DNA of 64,000 nt from Bacteroidales bacterium (GTDB lineage Bacteria > Bacteroidota > Bacteroidia > Bacteroidales > UBA3824). Both the position numbers and the translations under genes were made by a program. Within the stretch, counting starts at the first letter, position 1; each line of letters opens with the position of its first letter. The notes below the pieces were generated by a model, which made no database searches, had not been told where the DNA came from, and was given only the letters and a program-made list of their open reading frames with translations. Below are positions 1 to 24,379 of the stretch, one piece after another. The DNA is taken from positions 1 through 64,000 of the forward strand of contig JAFXZT010000076.1 of assembly GCA_017541145.1 (NCBI GenBank). Direction: 5' to 3'.

Positions 1-676
1 AAAATCTAATGTTTCCTGTGGTGTTGCACATGTTTTCAACGTTGCAAATTTAGAAATTTTGAAAGCAAATCACAACATGACAATGCACCTAAGCCGCTAA
101 CGCCTTCATGTTTTCAACGTTGCAAATTTAGAAATTTTGAAAGCAAATCACAACTACATTTTGTCGCCATAATTCAGATTCTGTCATGTTTTCAACGTTG
201 CAAATTTAAGAATTTTGAAAGCAATTCACAACGCGTCGGCGCTTCTTTAATAAATGGTTTTACATGTTTTCAACGTTGCAAATTTAAGAATTTTGAAAGC
301 AATTCACAACAGTCAATTGATATTTTCGTACTTCGCCAGTCATGTTTTCAACGTTGCAAATTTAAGAATTTTGAAAGCAATTCACAACCCTTAAGGGCTC
401 AGGGCGGGTACATGGTACCATGTTTTCAACGTTGCAAATTTAAGAATTTTGAAAGCAATTCACAACGGAGTGGAGTTTGTAAGAAGCAAAGAGTTTCATG
501 TTTTCAACGTTGCAAATTTAAGAATTTTGAAAGCAATTCACAACCATTTGACAGCTCTATCGAGTTTTGAAGAAGTTGCAAATTTAAGAATTTTGAAAGC
601 AATTCACAACAAGAAGAACCCTTATTTACATCTACTAATTGTTGCAAATTTAAGAATTTTGAAAGCAATTCACAAC
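1..676 (-). CRISPR. CRISPR array, block 1 (9 repeats, continues left of window)
   Basis: Nine direct repeats start at 29, 107, 185, 263, 341, 419, 497, 575 and 641. The first seven are 48 bases (CATGTTTTCAAC followed by a 36-base core starting GTTGCAAATTTA); the last two have only the 36-base core. All eight complete spacers are 30 bases, and 1-28 is the end of a further spacer, so the array continues leftwards. Read on the minus strand the repeat begins GTTGTGAATTGCTTTC, the form I know from Bacteroidota type II-C (Cas9) arrays, so the crRNA sense is probably minus. Two sequence types exist: TTTAGAAATTTT with CAAATCACAAC (first two repeats) and TTTAAGAATTTT with CAATTCACAAC (the rest). No cas gene is in the window; the type is inferred from repeat form only. 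Confidence 0.95.
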
Positions 677-716
677 TGTAGATATGGTTTTAAAAAAACG
701 TGGACATTATAACCTT

Positions 717-754
717 GTTGCAAGTGTATATTCACAAGAGGAAGTAAAAATCCC
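717..754 (+). other. Degenerate repeat-like sequence with a GGA/TCC hairpin (possible anti-repeat relic)
   Basis: GTTGCAA at 717 and TTCACAAG at 731 resemble the two ends of the CRISPR core with the middle deleted. They are followed by GGAAGTAAAAATCC, which can fold as a short GGA/TCC stem. The same order, a degenerate repeat and then GGAAG...AAAAATCC, occurs at 3378-3427. This could be a decayed tracrRNA anti-repeat plus nexus stem, or chance in AT-rich DNA. No terminator follows on the plus strand. Confidence 0.25.
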
Positions 755-813
755 AAACAAAATAAAAGCAACAGCAGCTACAAACGACATTTGGTACTAC
801 GATAGTAAAGTAA

Positions 814-903
814 TAAAAAATTGGCTATCCTCGATGGGGCAACTCCATTTGTTGCCGCTGTTGGAAGCCAATTCAATGTATTCAGATAAAGATTTCTGAA
901 TAC
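814..903 (-). ncRNA. Candidate small RNA inside the CRISPR region
   Basis: A transcript starting near 901-903 on the minus strand would fold first into GTATTCAG/CTGAATAC (903-896 with 885-878, 8 bp, 10-base loop). A longer hairpin follows, closed by AATTGGCT/AGCCAATT (873-866 with 826-819). Inside it is a second perfect stem, GGCAAC/GTTGCC (856-851 with 843-838, 7-base loop). The outer stem runs directly into a T-tract (820-815), the layout of an intrinsic terminator. The promoter lies directly upstream. I do not recognise the family. A plus-strand ORF (684-899) and a minus-strand ORF cross this region, but neither looks like a known protein. Function unknown. Confidence 0.6.
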
Positions 904-907
904 GGTT

Positions 908-939
908 GCAAAGATAACCAACTTTTTTGTAATTACAAA
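908..939 (-). promoter_or_regulatory. Bacteroidota-type promoter for the 814-903 small RNA
   Basis: On the minus strand TTTG (939-936) is followed after 19 bases by TATCTTTGC (916-908). This matches the Bacteroidota -33/-7 consensus with ideal spacing and predicts a start near 901-903. Confidence 0.7.
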
Positions 940-951
940 ATAAATTAACCA

Positions 952-990
952 TAAAAAAAGCGGCTTATTATCAAAGCCGCTTTTTTTATT
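952..990. terminator. Bidirectional terminator
   Basis: AGCGGCTT (959-966) pairs with AAGCCGCT (974-981), flanked by A7 on the left and T7-8 on the right, so it can work both ways. On the minus strand it lies just after the truncated phage gene ending at 1005. Confidence 0.85.
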
Positions 991-1004
991 CAGTATCAAT
1001 TAAT

Positions 1005-1139
1005 CTATTTGCACGCTCGAATAATCTCTCTTAAACCACTTTTGTAACCCTCTAAGTCCATACCACCGCAATATCCGTAGCGGTAAAACAAATCGGTTAG
1101 TCCGTTTTCTGTAATGAACCACGCCTTTGAGCCACCGTA
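1005..1139 (-). pseudogene. C-terminal fragment of a gene (44 codons), cut at a CRISPR repeat
   Basis: The minus strand reads as an open frame ending YCGGMDLEGYKSGLREIIRACK-like and then TAG at 1007-1005, followed by a good terminator. The frame opens at 1139, the base next to the repeat that starts at 1140, so the front of the gene is missing. Codon use and the terminator right behind it suggest a once-real gene end, probably from a phage given the neighbouring fragments. I do not recognise the family. Confidence 0.5.
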
Positions 1140-1421
1140 CATGTTTTCAACGTTGCAAATTTAAGAATTTTGAAAGCAAATCACAACGCTTGTCGCATTC
1201 AAAAACAAAAAAAATTTCATGTTTTCAACGTTGCAAATTTAAGAATTTTGAAAGCAATTCACAACAGCGTTCCTATTAAGGTTTTGGCTTACTGTCATGT
1301 TTTCAACGTTGCAAATTTAGAAATTTTGAAAGCAAATCACAACCAGAAACTCAAAAGAGTGAGGATGAATATTCATGTTTTCAACGTTGCAAATTTAGAA
1401 ATTTTGAAAGCAAATCACAAC
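1140..1421 (-). CRISPR. CRISPR array, block 2 (4 repeats)
   Basis: Four 48-base repeats at 1140-1187, 1218-1265, 1296-1343 and 1374-1421, with three 30-base spacers. The first is a hybrid (AAGAATTTT half with CAAATCACAAC), the second is like the younger type of block 1, and the last two are like the first two repeats of block 1. The block is bounded on both sides by phage-like gene fragments instead of spacers of normal length. Confidence 0.95.
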
Positions 1422-1553
1422 AGAATCTACGACCTTTTGTGCGGTTTCTTCGTCTGTGGCTGTCATAGCTAAAACGCCAGCCAAAAGATTTAAACCGTCT
1501 TTTCTTGCGCCTTGAAATTTAGTTTCAAGTAACTGTAATATTGTTTCTTTCAT
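1422..1553 (-). pseudogene. N-terminal fragment of a phage scaffold/protease-like gene
   Basis: ATG at 1553 begins a frame reading MKETILQLLETKFQGARKDG and ending ...EETAQKVVDS at the repeat edge (1421). After that the frame only reads repeat sequence until a stop at 1395. The opening pattern (MKxxIL, then TKFxG, then a TxEEE-like segment) is what I recall at the start of a capsid-associated protein in Bacteroides Mu-like phages; the family call is from memory. The gene is cut exactly at the CRISPR repeat. It reads in the same direction as the head-protein fragment at 1927-2496, as expected if 1422-2497 is one piece of phage DNA. Confidence 0.55.
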
Positions 1554-1684
1554 ACGTTTGAAATTTGTTTTTGCAAATAAATAAAACATTATTATAATGC
1601 ACAATAGTGTATCAATATTTTTCTTTTTTTTGTTTATTCGTTTTTATTTTTTTTCTTTGTACAAAATTTTAAAAATATAAAATC

Positions 1685-1945
1685 ATGATACCAGAATACG
1701 CAAAAAAAATAGGCACTGAATCTGAATTTACACCGGAAATGCATTATTCAATGTTAAGCGGCGAATGTTCTTATCTTGAAATTATGGTTATGGCTGCGCG
1801 TGCTGAAACAAAAAACGGAATGTCACTTTCCGATGCTTGTAAAAAATACAAAATTACAGTTCAAGATTTTAGAGATAATTATGAAAAAGTTTTTCCGGGT
1901 TCGTTATTCAAAGAAACGTTTCCCGATTATTTAGAATCTAAATAA
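1685..1945 (+). CDS. Hypothetical 86-residue protein in the phage segment
   Basis: The complete ORF starts at ATG 1685 behind a Bacteroidota-like TTCTTTG element (about 1652-1658). The product is small, without signal peptide or membrane segment, and probably all-helical; the stretch LSDACKKYKITVQDFRDNYE resembles a short helix-turn-helix-like unit, but I cannot name the family. It converges with the head-protein fragment on the other strand, and the two coding ends overlap by 19 bases (1927-1945). It lies in the 1076-base segment between CRISPR repeats, so it is probably phage cargo (for example a small regulator). Confidence 0.5.
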   Translation: MIPEYAKKIGTESEFTPEMHYSMLSGECSYLEIMVMAARAETKNGMSLSDACKKYKITVQDFRDNYEKVFPGSLFKETFPDYLESK

Positions 1946-2496
1946 TTTTCAAAAACTTTAACTTGTTTTTTATCTGTCAAATCCAAAAAGCCCCACCAAT
2001 CAAAACTTATAATATCCTCTTTAAATTCGGGATGCTCTGCCAATTTGTTCATTGGAAATGGTGCATTATCGTTTTTAGCTTCATTTTTATAATAATCATC
2101 GATAATTGCTTCCATTAAGGGTTTGTTTTTGGGTGATGCGTTTAACGAAACAAGTTTTTTTACTTCTTCTTTTGATGAAATGCTAAAACCATAACGCGCC
2201 CATGCCCATCCGCCGATTTTATCGTCTGCATGTAATTCAATTTTTTTAATTCCACAATTTTTATATTGTTTGTAAAACGCTTTTGTTATTAATTTAGAAA
2301 TATCTTTTTGTTGCAAATTTCCAATTAATTTAAATCGTGTGTGATTTACAATTTTTTCGCCGTCCCTGTAAAAAAAGTATCTTGATAAATCGATTTTGTT
2401 TTGTTCGCCCTCAAATAAAATTGTTGCTTCTTTAGATTTAACTCTAAAATCTTTTTTCTTTATTTGAATTCCAAATTCTTCAAATATTTTATTCAT
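1927..2496 (-). pseudogene. C-terminal part of a MuF-like phage head protein, cut at a CRISPR repeat
   Basis: The minus frame gives about 189 residues beginning MNKIFEEFGIQ. Near the middle is IELHADDKIGGWAWARYGF, a motif I associate with the C-terminal region of Mu-type minor head proteins of Bacteroidota phages, where the usual form is LxANxDVGGYxWAKYGF. In those proteins this region follows a large head-morphogenesis domain that is absent here. The first ATG (2496-2494) sits one base from the repeat starting at 2498, so there is no natural upstream region and the N-terminal part was probably lost. Expression would have to start in the repeat. Family assignment is by motif memory only. Confidence 0.55.
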
Positions 2497-2497
2497 A

Positions 2498-2545
2498 CAT
2501 GTTTTCAACGTTGCAAATTTAAGAATTTTGAAAGCAATTCACAAC
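2498..2545 (-). CRISPR. Solitary full-length CRISPR repeat
   Basis: A perfect 48-base repeat of the younger sequence type stands alone, with phage-like gene fragments on both sides (1422-2497 and 2546-3177). Confidence 0.9.
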
Positions 2546-2546
2546 C

Positions 2547-2636
2547 GAACGGATGGGCGTATTATTTGAGAGCAACAACACGTACACAGAATACTATGCT
2601 GACCGCACCTTCGGCTCTCCGACACTCACATGGTAA
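2547..2636 (+). pseudogene. C-terminal gene fragment (29 codons) after a CRISPR repeat
   Basis: From the repeat edge an open frame reads ERMGVLFESNNTYTEYYAD... and ends with TAA at 2634-2636. It has no start of its own. GC content and codon use are higher than in the surrounding intergenic DNA, and a terminator follows at 2691, so it looks like the end of a real, probably phage, gene. Family not recognised. Confidence 0.4.
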
Positions 2637-2690
2637 GTAATCCCCGTTTCGCCAGCCGTTGATGCGTAAGACAAACACAATTAATTAAAC

Positions 2691-2720
2691 GCCGTTAAAA
2701 CAGTATTTAACGGCATTTTA
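2691..2720. terminator. Terminator-like hairpin
   Basis: GCCGTTAAA (2691-2699) pairs with TTTAACGGC (2706-2714), followed by ATTTTATT. It lies between the 2547-2636 fragment and the convergent membrane ORF. Confidence 0.6.
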
Positions 2721-2728
2721 TTAATAGG

Positions 2729-2956
2729 TTAATTGTGATTGTTTAGCCACCACCAATTAGTAATGGTGTGTTTCCTGTGTAATGGCATTTCTGTATGTTC
2801 TTGGTCTTGTTGTCTTTGACGAGTTCCCTTATAAATAAGAAAACACGCACCTCCAATAATAAAACAAAAATAGCCGGCAGCCTCACAGCCTAAATATAGG
2901 AAAACAAATCCCGCAATAATAATCAAATACGAATGTTTTAAAATTTTTGCAACCAT
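2729..2956 (-). CDS. Small membrane protein, phage-associated
   Basis: A 75-residue product starting at ATG 2956 has one long or two short hydrophobic segments (roughly residues 8-45: SYLIIIAGFVFLY and then YFCFIIGGACFLIY) and a basic tail. It is transcribed away from the tape-measure fragment at 2969. The same divergent pair (small membrane ORF and tape-measure start) recurs at 24376/24572, which supports it as a real gene of this phage family. The two small proteins share topology, not obvious sequence. Role unknown. Confidence 0.5.
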   Translation of the reverse strand: MVAKILKHSYLIIIAGFVFLYLGCEAAGYFCFIIGGACFLIYKGTRQRQQDQEHTEMPLHRKHTITNWWWLNNHN

Positions 2957-2968
2957 AATATATAAGTT

Positions 2969-3177
2969 ATGAGTGTTAATACAGTATATTCTATCGAGAT
3001 TGTACCAAAAGGAACTGATCAAGTCAACAACGCTGTAGTTGCTGTTAGCAAAATAGGCTCAGCAGTAAACAAAATCAATTCGTCTGTAAATCCTCTAACA
3101 AAAATAATACAGCTTTTGAAAAATACCAACAAAATTTTAATGAATATCTGCAAGGTAGGTGTGGAAAGTTTCAATAA
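2969..3177 (+). pseudogene. N-terminal fragment of a phage tail tape-measure-like gene
   Basis: The frame begins MSVNTVYSIEIVPKGTDQVN and continues KINSSVNPLTKIIQLLKNTNKILM. The same opening occurs at 24572 (YEINIVPTGTDELN ... MDPLAKII, stop, LLETTNKILM), so the two are homologues. An N-terminus of this kind, IxIVPxGTDxhN then a helical repeat region, fits a tail-length tape-measure protein. Here the gene is cut after about 69 codons at the 36-base CRISPR repeat (3178); the rest of what is normally a very long protein is absent. Confidence 0.6.
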
Positions 3178-3213
3178 GTTGCAAATTTAAGAATTTTGAA
3201 AGCAATTCACAAC
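3178..3213 (-). CRISPR. Solitary 36-base CRISPR repeat
   Basis: A perfect copy of the 36-base core, lacking the 12-base CATGTTTTCAAC part exactly as the repeats at 575 and 641 do. Phage tape-measure sequence ends at its left edge and 164 bases of non-phage sequence follow. Confidence 0.85.
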
Positions 3214-3234
3214 ACAAATTGTCTGTCCGTTCAT

Positions 3235-3266
3235 TTGTAGAGACGGTGTGCACACCGTCTCTACAA
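3235..3266. repeat. 32-bp perfect palindrome (REP/MITE-like)
   Basis: TTGTAGAGACGGTGTG (3235-3250) is followed immediately by its exact reverse complement. GTAGAGACG-type palindromes are widespread dispersed repeats in several phyla. Only this copy was noticed in the window. As RNA it would fold into a strong hairpin with U-rich sequence behind it, so it could also stop transcription. Confidence 0.7.
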
Positions 3267-3275
3267 CAGATTATT

Positions 3276-3305
3276 TTTGTTATAAAAAATTGTTTGTATA
3301 TTTGC
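3276..3305 (+). promoter_or_regulatory. Bacteroidota-type promoter for the 3308-3377 RNA
   Basis: TTTG at 3276-3279 and TATATTTGC at 3297-3305, spaced 17 bases (slightly short), predict a start near 3308-3312. Confidence 0.55.
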
Positions 3306-3307
3306 TG

Positions 3308-3377
3308 TGTCAATCTGGCCGGGGCTGCGGCGCGGGCATTCTAAGGATTGACAGGGCGGCTACGGTCGCCTTTTTTT
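3308..3377 (+). ncRNA. Candidate small RNA, GC-rich, with UACG-loop terminator
   Basis: Within very AT-rich surroundings this 70-base stretch is GC-rich and highly foldable. TGTCAATC (3308-3315) pairs perfectly with GATTGACA (3346-3353). Inside, GCCG/CGGC can form a second stem. It ends in GGCGGC-TACG-GTCGCC (3355-3370) followed by T7, an intrinsic terminator with a C(UACG)G tetraloop. A promoter lies just upstream. No ORF fits. A degenerate CRISPR repeat begins at the end of the T-tract. I do not recognise the RNA; a regulatory RNA of the phage or of the CRISPR locus is possible. Confidence 0.65.
3354..3377 (+). terminator. Intrinsic terminator of the 3308-3377 RNA
   Basis: A 6-bp stem (GGCGGC with GTCGCC, one G-U pair) closed by the stable TACG tetraloop and followed by seven T. 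Confidence 0.85.
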
Positions 3378-3410
3378 ATTGCAAATTAATTTTGAAAGCA
3401 AAATCACAAC
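3378..3410 (-). CRISPR. Degenerate terminal CRISPR repeat or anti-repeat
   Basis: ATTGCAAATTAATTTTGAAAG followed by CAAAATCACAAC matches the 36-base core with a short internal deletion and one inserted A. It is the last repeat-like sequence on the right. It may be the decayed end of the array, or a tracrRNA anti-repeat read on the plus strand: GAAAGC...TCACAAC would pair with the crRNA start, and GGAAG...AAAAATCC follows. I cannot decide between the two. Confidence 0.6.
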
Positions 3411-5202: not shown

Positions 5203-5316
5203 TTTACACATTTTTCGATGTTAAAATGTGAGAATTTACACATTTTTCGATGATAATTTGCGAGAATTTACACATTTTTCGATTGTAAAATGTGAAAGTT
5301 TACACATCTTCCGAGG
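5203..5316. repeat. Four direct repeats with exact 32-bp period upstream of the ATPase gene
   Basis: TTTACACATTTTTCGATG occurs at 5203 and 5235, nearly identical at 5267, and as TTTACACATCTTCCGAGG at 5299. Starts are exactly 32 bp apart, about three helical turns. Each unit also contains an inverted pair, CACATTTT ... AAAATGTG. The position, 59-172 bp upstream of the ATPase start, suggests an operator bound cooperatively by a dimeric regulator, possibly the ATPase itself. Confidence 0.85.
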
Positions 5317-5334
5317 ATGATTTATCAGAAATCA

Positions 5335-22434: not shown

Positions 22435-22838
22435 TCATCGCCGCTTGCGGCATTTGTTTAATGTAATTGCCAGTGCATTGTTCTTTACTGAGGCTTTCAT
22501 CACGCTGCCGTCTTTGCGTTTTCTTACTTTCTTGTGATACTTGTGGTCATCGCCCCAAAATAGCGTTTCATCTTTGCTGTCACCTTTATTTTGCCGCCTT
22601 CGTTGTGAATTTTGGCGTATGGAAGGTTGGAAGTAAAAGTTATCTTAAACCCGCTTACTTTGGCATTAATGCTCCGTCTCAGCGCACCCGATTGCATCAT
22701 CAGGCTGCCTTTGTGGTTTAGAATCCGTTTCGGCCAAGCCTTTCCGCCAAAGGATTTAGTCTCAAAACTCTTATCAAACAAATCTCCCAGCGATACGGCT
22801 ATTTCCCGCATCATCTGTTTTAGTATCGGTTCTGCCAT
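22435..22838 (-). pseudogene. Phage virion morphogenesis (Mu gpG-like) gene, frameshifted
   Basis: The minus frame from 22838 reads MAEPILKQMMREIAVSLGDL...LPYAKIHNEGGKIKVTAKMKRYF and then ends prematurely as GAMTTSITRK (stop at 22524). Shifting by one base after KRYF gives WGDDHKYHKKVRKRKDGSVM...AITLNKCRKRR with a stop at 22435, a natural basic ending. The gene thus appears to have lost one base near 22556. YAxxHNEGG and the small basic protein fit phage virion morphogenesis / tail-completion proteins next to Mu-type head genes. Confidence 0.7.
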
Positions 22839-22960
22839 GATTAATTAAAAGTTGAAAATTAAAAACCGCGGTCAGTTGGGCGGTCTGTTGGGGCAGACCT
22901 GCGTGTCCGCCCGTTCTTTATTTTGTTCCGTCCGTTCCGCCGCATTTTATGCGGCTATGG

Positions 22961-23203
22961 TTATTTGAGTGTCTTGTATGTGTATGTAGTGTCGTATTGC
23001 ACTTCGATAATCTCCGCATCGTCTCTCATGTGTCTTTTGATATAACACTTTGCCGCACTTGGGGCGCAAAACGGAATACAAGCCGTCAGGGCATCCTGCG
23101 GAAAACCTTTATCTCCTATGCCGTGATAGCCAAACCTATGACTAAGATCAGTATACCCATACACGATATAGCCAGTTGTTGTCTTTTTTATAGTTCCTTC
23201 CAT
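22961..23203 (-). CDS. Hypothetical phage protein (80 residues)
   Basis: Starts MEGTIKKTTTGYIVYGYTDL. There is no signal or membrane segment and no family I recognise. It lies between the virion-morphogenesis relic and the head-protein relic on the same strand, where Mu-like phages carry small structural or regulatory genes. It appears intact, but its surroundings are decayed. Confidence 0.45.
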   Translation of the reverse strand: MEGTIKKTTTGYIVYGYTDLSHRFGYHGIGDKGFPQDALTACIPFCAPSAAKCYIKRHMRDDAEIIEVQYDTTYTYKTLK

Positions 23204-23302
23204 TTTTTCTCGTTTTTTATTTTGTTATCCAATAATTTATTTCTACTTTTGCAGTGGACAAAGCCTTTTACACAAGTAGCGGTCTCCTTGCCGTTGACTG
23301 TA

Positions 23303-24379
23303 TTAGACTTTGTTTTTTATTTTATCCTCGTTAAAATGATCCTCGTCTTGGATTTGATGAACAATAAATTCTCCATTGTACTCTTTGATGACAATATAAG
23401 AATAGCCGTTTAGGAACTTCATTTTATAGTAATGCCATATTGTTACATCTGTATGTCCTCTTGCTTTTATGCCTTTGGCATCAGGAGTATTACCAAGGTA
23501 AACCGCTTTGCTTTTGTCTTGCAAAAGTCGTTTTAAATAGTATATTGCCATATTTTTGGCAAAATAATATTTGTGAGGTTTCCAAACAAGAAGGTCTAAA
23601 TTACTTCTTGTTACTGTTATTTCTTTAACAGGTCCATTGTTTATTGTCCATTTTTGATGTTCGTCTTTTTGTATGAGATTATGAAAATGTTGTTTTGTTA
23701 CATCGCTTGACCATTTTGCACTTGCAGCATCTATCTTTCTACACGCTTTGCATATAGCCTTTTCACTCTCAAAAATCAATTTTTTAAACTCACATTCCCC
23801 GCATCCTTTCGGCAAATACGGATGCTTACTTGGAAATAGCCGTTTTTTTTCTGCCAAATTCTCTTTAAACATCTTTTCTTTTGGTGTCTTAAAGCAACTT
23901 TCGGCTTTGGCTATGCTTCCGTGGCTGTCTTGCACGGGGTAATCGTCTTTAAGAACTGCTACCACCGTACACCTGCAACCCCAGCCATTTGGCGGTGTGT
24001 ACTGTTTCCAAAATGGATCATCCACCGGCAATGTTGTCCCGTGTAGTATGCGGTGTGAGGCTCTCACTCTCTCATCGTTGGCTGTGCGGTATTGCAGATT
24101 GATAAAATCCTTGTTCTTCTCAAAATTCTGCCACTTAGCCGCCATTTGCGCCGCCTGTAATGCTTGATTGTACTCACTTCGTAGGTAGTTGTGGTTGTAG
24201 TCTTTACCCAGTGCATCTACCTCTTTCATAAAAAAAAGACTTTATATTGCCGTCTTTGTCAACCAACATTTGAGACACCTGTTCCAGTTCCGCATGAGTC
24301 TTGAAACCGGAGAACACAAAGGCGTTTTCTCTCAGTGCCGATGATACTGCCGCTATATTGGCGGCTCTTAGATATTTAA
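23303..24379 (-). pseudogene. Phage head morphogenesis protein (SPP1 gp7 / Mu gpF-like), truncated and frameshifted
   Basis: The main frame (24229-23303) carries the head-morphogenesis signature: RTANDERVRASHRILHGTTL, then DDPFWKQYTPPNGWGCRC. Upstream in another phase the minus strand reads DFKYLRAANIAAVSSALREN...FVFSGFKTHAELEQVS...DGNIKSFF, which continues into MKEVDALGKDYNHNYLRSEY if one T is removed from the T8 run near 24230-24237. The 5' end beyond about 24379 is missing; the sequence runs directly into the small membrane ORF. The last 90 residues (WKPHKYYFAKNMAIYYLKRL ... IVHQIQDEDHF) may be a separate C-terminal domain, as in MuF proteins carrying nuclease-like toxins; this is inference. 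Confidence 0.75.

Follow-up and report, generated by a model that had tools for sequence, protein, structure and literature searches.

The locus raises the question of how pieces of phage DNA, hundreds of nucleotides long and ending inside genes, come to lie between the intact repeats of a CRISPR (clustered regularly interspaced short palindromic repeats) array. It lies at the start of contig JAFXZT010000076.1 (C163, 77 kb), part of the draft genome (4.6 Mb, 192 contigs) of a Bacteroidales bacterium of GTDB lineage UBA3824, a gut-type bacterium. We analysed the first 64,000 nucleotides of this contig (hereafter, the window). Three spacer slots of a type II-C array are occupied by phage DNA, and other Bacteroidales have arrays with structures of this class. 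Among the possible origins of these segments, we rank first, tentatively, the recombination of phage DNA with the array at two spacers that match the phage.

Phage DNA in three spacer slots

Fifteen CRISPR repeats fitting a single pattern are found at positions 29-3213 of the window. Eleven of the gaps between them measure exactly 30 nt, and the other three (677-1139, 1422-2497 and 2546-3177) are 463, 1076 and 632 nt long, i.e. 15 to 36 times the normal spacer length. A preliminary description of this DNA had reported three segments between perfect CRISPR repeats, and its coordinates are exact. It had also proposed that five truncated phage-like frames end at repeat borders. All five frames do reach the edges, and a sixth edge, at 677, likewise lies inside an open frame, of 73 codons.

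Comparisons with relatives show how several of these genes are cut. At edge 1422, the scaffold-like N-terminus matches PHROG 5824 (E 3e-7), and its relative in a prophage of another genome of the genus, G005, runs beyond the edge. The tail-fibre C-terminus at edge 2547 corresponds to a gene that extends further upstream in the IMG/VR contig L019, and a relative of the tape-measure N-terminus of edge 3177, found in genome G003, continues past that edge. Frames of 44 and 189 codons are open up to the repeats at edges 1139 and 2497, respectively, the former having no family match and the latter no match in Pfam or PHROG. The name 'MuF-like' previously given to the 189-codon frame derives only from its position, as it occupies the place of the MuF gene, beside the scaffold gene, in the related G005 prophage. 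Segment 2, whose orientation is opposite to that of segment 3, has 82% DNA identity to this prophage, located on contig C28 of G005. The gene pieces of segment 1 have no convincing family match.

Apart from short weak matches, the phage DNA of the segments has no other copy in the genome. There is no transposase among the open reading frames (ORFs) of the segments, and both flanking repeats are intact. The earlier argument that a single mobile-element insertion does not account for the structure is correct.

Phage remnants are present elsewhere in these genomes. On contig C105 of G003 (L041:4643-6150), a small remnant beside a tRNA-like sequence has the gene order of segment 3, with a tail fibre, a membrane protein and a frameshifted tape measure. 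At 22524-24229 (-) of the window, a prophage remnant amid host genes encodes a Mu F head protein (PF04233, E 3e-18), alongside a second product that is probably involved in virion morphogenesis.

The array and its repeats

The array repeat has a single further copy elsewhere in the genome, which forms the final 48 nt of contig C81. This contig carries cas9, cas1, cas2 and a leader, followed by that first repeat at the contig end. Profile matches were obtained for Cas9 (1514 aa; TIGR01865, 396 bits), Cas1 (TIGR03639, 321 bits) and Cas2 (TIGR01573), and no ORF of the csn2 or cas4 kind lies between cas2 and the leader on C81. A large cas9 with type II cas1 and cas2, devoid of csn2 and cas4, is the gene content of type II-C systems of the Bacteroidota kind. 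Because the same repeat is found after cas2 and the leader on C81 and at the start of the window contig, the array is assigned to type II-C, with the leader on its left and the right end leader-distal; the join between C81 and C163 is unassembled. Bacteroidota II-C arrays are transcribed toward the leader from a promoter within each repeat (PMC10309648). By inspection, TTG-20nt-TAAATTTG in the reverse repeat is a candidate promoter.

The repeats come in two lengths, 48 nt (CATGTTTTCAAC followed by 36 nt) and a 36-nt short form (at 575, 641 and 3178), the latter being the left flank of segment 1 and the right flank of segment 3. They also belong to two sub-types, A (TTTAGAAATT..CAAATC) and B (TTTAAGAATT..CAATTC), with one hybrid (h) at 1140. 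With b denoting the 36-nt form, the order along the array is A A B B B B B b b [segment 1] h B A A [segment 2] B [segment 3] b. All three long segments thus have unlike flanking repeats, compared with 4/11 normal spacers (p about 0.10).

Table 1. Features of the CRISPR array and its long segments (window positions)
Feature	Positions	Strand	Details
Partial spacer, 28 nt	1..28	+	Contig start, leader side
Leader-proximal block	29..676	+	Repeats at 29, 107 (A), 185, 263, 341, 419, 497 (B, 48 nt), 575, 641 (36 nt); eight 30-nt spacers
Long segment 1, 463 nt	677..1139		C-terminal gene piece 678-899 (+); terminator-like hairpin about 951-989; convergent C-terminal piece 1139-1008 (-)
Repeats and three 30-nt spacers	1140..1421	+	Repeats at 1140 (hybrid), 1218 (B), 1296, 1374 (A)
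Long segment 2, 1076 nt; phage head-gene region, reverse orientation	1422..2497		Scaffold-like N-terminus 1541-1422 (-); 86-aa ORF 1685-1945 (+); 189-codon C-terminal piece 2496-1927 (-)
48-nt repeat (B)	2498..2545	+	Separates segments 2 and 3
Long segment 3, 632 nt	2546..3177		Tail-fibre C-terminus 2547-2636 (+); small membrane protein about 2729-2962 (-); tape-measure N-terminus 2969-3177 (+)
36-nt repeat	3178..3213	+	Tape-measure/repeat/chromosome junction in common with L019
Leader-distal interval ahead of the degenerate end repeat	3214..3376		Palindrome GAGACGGTGTGCACACCGTCTC at 3240
Degenerate terminal repeat (TTATTGCAAATTAATTTTGAAAGCAAAATCACAAC)	3377..3410	+	Leader-distal array end

Outside the array, 32-nt tandem repeats (TTTACACATTTTTCGAT..) are present at 5203-5330 of the window, upstream of a DUF4143 ATPase gene.

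One junction recurs in an independent contig

Segment 3 is 93.8% identical to L019 over 627 nt, an alignment that nearly reaches its left edge. From position 2740, the two sequences are about 99% identical through the repeat and into the chromosomal flank (98.9% over 1.3 kb). On its other side, L019 continues with >8 kb of contractile-tail phage genes, including those for the sheath and the major capsid protein. The tape-measure/repeat/chromosome junction is therefore present in two assemblies of two strains, and its recurrence in an independent contig indicates that this edge is not a one-off assembly error. The junction differs slightly between the two, reading TTTCAATAA/GTTGC in the window and TTTCAAC/GTTGC in L019, together with a difference in repeat sub-type, a pattern that resembles conversion of the repeat.

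We considered whether L019 proves the existence of a full integrated prophage and dropped this idea, since an assembler could have joined the array segment to a free phage having about 430 nt in common with it. A palindrome (GAGACGGTGTG[C/T]ACACCGTCTC) is found at 3240-3261 of the window and at positions 1344 and 10080 of L019. Its settings are the distal flank of the array and a head-region gene of the L019 phage, where 18-nt tandem repeats follow it.

Similar segments in other Bacteroidales

A second species of the genus is represented by G005 (RGIG1595), a metagenome-assembled genome from goat abomasum, whose Cas9 is 79% identical to that of the window genome. Its array consists of some 30 regular repeats, one window-type repeat, 2.46 kb of phage-like DNA and a terminal repeat; its long segment also has unlike flanking repeats. 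The repeat at the left edge truncates a 669-aa protein that has weak matches to MuF_C and to transglutaminase-like domains, and relatives of its C-terminal domain in the genus run further than the edge. At the right edge, a frame of 126 codons is open at the repeat. A scan of viral_contigs gave no match to this segment. The window-type repeat (contig C65; L038:2310-2357) is located at the leader-distal end of an array of another repeat type, directly ahead of the phage-like segment, which suggests exchange between arrays of different species.

In another genome, G016, phage genes lie about 1 kb beyond the array; this case was set aside because the edges are not flush. One G016 spacer matches, at 30/31 nt, a tail-fibre-like gene carried by a different contig of G016 (L098:2186-2215 and L046:10794-10824), and the cas9 of this genome reads in separate frames with stops. 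G016 is thus a probable case of self-targeting with a broken cas9.

We then surveyed the order by locating type II cas1 genes, taking 100 downstream stretches and scanning 78 arrays (1759 repeats) for good repeats that are >150 nt apart. We excluded gaps of about 100-140 nt, as they correspond to a missed or masked repeat, and long gaps in G230 and G085 were not counted because their end repeats are degenerate. Six of the 78 type II-C arrays contain segments of 0.3-3.6 kb with a good repeat on either side: G041 (2282 nt, mid-array), G363 (1156 and 1298 nt), G282 (478 nt), G320 (610 nt), G354 (315 nt) and G058 (3632 nt). The number rises to 9/78 if a degenerate end repeat is allowed, which adds G342 (1162 nt), G371 (1790 nt) and G352 (655 nt). 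Spacers are 29-31 nt long in nearly all gaps of the surveyed arrays, and several of the long segments occupy the oldest, leader-distal slot. No long segment was found in 18 further arrays of G363's family or on a Phocaeicola plasmid.

The content of the segments was checked in three of these arrays. That of G041 has translated similarity, from its first to its last bases, to a single 104-kb viral contig (L214), and its left gene extends 204-223 aa further in that phage. The MuF/ADP-ribosyltransferase gene of G058 extends 175-183 aa further in two phages. The 1156-nt segment of G363 comes from the interior of an ORF that spans at least 2194 aa; in G363, homologous phage genes extend about 1000 and 820 aa beyond the two sides. 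Long phage segments thus appear to recur among the type II-C arrays of Bacteroidales. The preliminary description had regarded this as an uncommon way of rebuilding an array, a view to be amended in light of the second species of the genus and the 6-9 of 78 other arrays of the order.

All genomes with such segments are draft assemblies, and this is the main doubt regarding the structure. We consider the long segments likely to be real.

Origin of the long segments

The preliminary description had proposed two routes to these structures, recombination between spacers and their protospacers, or capture of very long spacers. They are indeed the two live explanations, and the same pair was put forward for SiL-E1, a plasmid segment in an archaeal array (PMC3718332). 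Overall, the earlier interpretation is partly supported.

In the explanation that we tentatively place first, DNA of an infecting phage or a prophage would recombine with the array at two existing spacers that match it, probably with the assistance of Cas9 cuts. The phage stretch between the two protospacers would replace the array stretch between the two spacers, leaving phage genes cut exactly at repeats, with flanking repeats drawn from different positions of the array. Unlike flanking repeats, seen for all three window segments, are expected from such an event because the intervening units are lost; a single capture would leave like repeats. Together with the frequent leader-distal placement, they therefore favour the rearrangement of an existing array. 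Exact repeat edges with cut genes, the L019 junction and the recurrence in G005, G041, G058 and G363 also support recombination, as do the homologous phage genes that extend beyond the edges in G041, G058 and G363, the similarity of the whole G041 segment to L214 and the reported recombination of spacers with their phage targets (Varble 2019, cited in PMC8616872 and PMC10434264). Both edges of a segment would then be 30-nt protospacers and, given transcription toward the leader, the protospacer-adjacent motif (PAM) of the leader-distal edge would still be inside the segment. With that direction of transcription, only the ~30 nt at the leader-side edge would have guide potential.

We looked for the PAM at the segment edges. 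For the window's own spacers, the genus yielded no protospacers, and the matches in phages and plasmids were all weak or due to repeats; hence, the PAM of the window Cas9 had to be borrowed from relatives. The flanks of protospacers of G005 spacers read CTAC (two), CAAC, TAAC, AAAC and TGAT, and that for a G016 spacer reads TAAA, from which the flank for this Cas9 clade is tentatively NNA, often NNAC. The three right-hand edges in the window read GAAAAC, TCAAAT and ATATTC, in agreement with NNA in 3/3 cases (about 0.04 by chance). In G363, the first edge (CAGTTT) agrees at positions 3-5 with the sole protospacer flank available, GGGTTG.

Several observations weigh against recombination. The agreement with NNA at the window edges is weak, and none of the three has NNAC, although C is the fourth base in most G005 protospacers. 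The right edge of the G005 segment fits the flank only if the spacer is 29 nt long, and the second edge of G363 (ATCAAA) disagrees with GGGTTG. No normal-length version of any edge spacer was found, nor was an intact parent phage: INPHARED gave no match to the window segments, and in the viral_contigs scans segment 3 matched L019 alone and segments 1 and 2 had no match. Segment lengths cluster at 0.3-3.6 kb, with none of 4-12 kb, which is tighter than random protospacer pairs would give. The edge-flank data may be read either way, as they neither prove nor exclude recombination.

The narrow length range suggests a length limit and thereby slightly favours oversized capture, which we rank second and consider rather unlikely. 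In this process, Cas1-Cas2, possibly with Cas9, would have integrated untrimmed phage fragments of about 0.3-3.6 kb and duplicated the repeat as usual, and a PAM would be expected only outside the leader-side edge. The uninterrupted phage DNA up to both repeats in G041, the perfect identical flanking repeats in G041, G363 (both segments) and G282, and the two leader-distal edges of G363 without a common PAM are consistent with capture, which is also one of the routes considered for SiL-E1 (PMC3718332). However, the flanking repeats are unlike in 3/3 window segments and in G005, several segments occupy the oldest slot rather than one near the leader, and Cas1-Cas2 normally fixes spacer length tightly, as the 29-31 nt of nearly all gaps illustrate.

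Misassembly, third in rank, is improbable. In metagenome assemblies, a 30-nt identity of spacer and protospacer could have let the assembler switch from array to phage or back, and 30-nt edges would likewise be expected. The positive genomes are in 30-200 contigs, G005 is metagenome-assembled, the window array lies at a contig end, and none of seven arrays from single-contig genomes has a good long segment, although that sample is too small to weigh against a real structure. However, the assembler would have to lose a particular pair of graph branches at each edge, L019 shows the right edge again with strain-level differences, and the closed isolate genome of Sulfolobus islandicus LAL14/1 has a like structure (PMC3718332).

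Last, end joining, illegitimate recombination or phage integration at repeats followed by decay (through microhomology at repeat ends, site-specific integration as in phiAP1.1, or phage-borne repeats) is very unlikely: the phage sequence at 3169-3181 (TTTCAATAAGTTG) does resemble the repeat (TTTTCAACGTTG), L019 differs exactly there, and phages with type II-C-like repeats exist (e.g. the mini-array of Riemerella phage CRP19), but the edges, at which neither an integrase nor a transposase is seen, lie at varied places inside structural genes rather than at a phage attachment site, and the repeats are complete on both sides.

Implications

It is doubtful that Bacteroidales type II-C systems regularly store kilobase-sized phage DNA as giant spacers, through untrimmed capture or array-phage recombination. 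If they did, arrays would have a standing heritable route for the uptake of phage genes, and the leader-side edge would continue to supply guides. An oddity of the SiL-E1 type, reported once in an archaeon, now appears to recur in several percent of the arrays of related bacteria, which makes it testable. At issue is whether the adaptation machinery is able to insert DNA that has not been trimmed, or whether phages targeted by Cas9 recombine with arrays so frequently that traces remain. The outcome matters in both cases for array remodelling, for the possible phage-borne movement of defence loci and for spacer-calling software, which may misread such gaps.

Comparison with known systems

The closest precedent is SiL-E1 in CRISPR_2 of S. 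islandicus LAL14/1, a 1.9-kb plasmid 'pseudo-spacer' flush between perfect repeats and collinear with its source (PMC3718332). The 2013 report left its two proposed origins open and stated that such spacers were previously undescribed (PMC3718332). We found no other precedent in the open-access literature; other cases may exist. As in SiL-E1, DNA of mobile elements accounts for every base from one intact repeat to the next (segment 3 compared with L019, nearly to its left edge, and G041 compared with L214). SiL-E1 is a single case of conjugative plasmid DNA in an archaeal array of a closed genome, whereas here phage DNA is found in bacterial type II-C arrays, with three segments in the window array and recurrence in the order, in drafts only.

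Spacer-target recombination between phage and CRISPR locus, fusing phage DNA to the array, is attributed to Varble 2019 by the articles that cite it (PMC8616872, PMC10434264). As presented there, that work concerned laboratory staphylococci and was described for gene transfer, whereas the pieces described here are short, remain trapped in natural arrays and have putative protospacers. According to a citing article, the whole temperate phage phiAP1.1 of Streptococcus pyogenes integrates into CRISPR repeats (Varble et al. 2021, cited in PMC9379143). Phage DNA adjoins CRISPR repeats in both situations; unlike phiAP1.1 as cited, a whole phage with one attachment site, the window has six edges in unrelated genes and pieces of 0.46-1.1 kb (0.3-3.6 kb across genomes). 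Nor do the window segments, with no transposase and with both repeats intact, fit an insertion sequence, which would bring a transposase and a target-site duplication within one repeat or spacer.

Finally, phages themselves can carry solitary repeat units or mini-arrays, such as Racr (PMC10651486). Riemerella phage CRP19 (OR089151.1; L299:3005-3208) has a mini CRISPR array whose 48-nt repeats are type II-C-like and whose spacers measure 30 nt. There too, phage sequence is joined to host-type repeats. In Racr and CRP19, however, the repeats lie in an intact phage, whereas those described here are part of an array on the chromosome, which has cas genes and a host flank.

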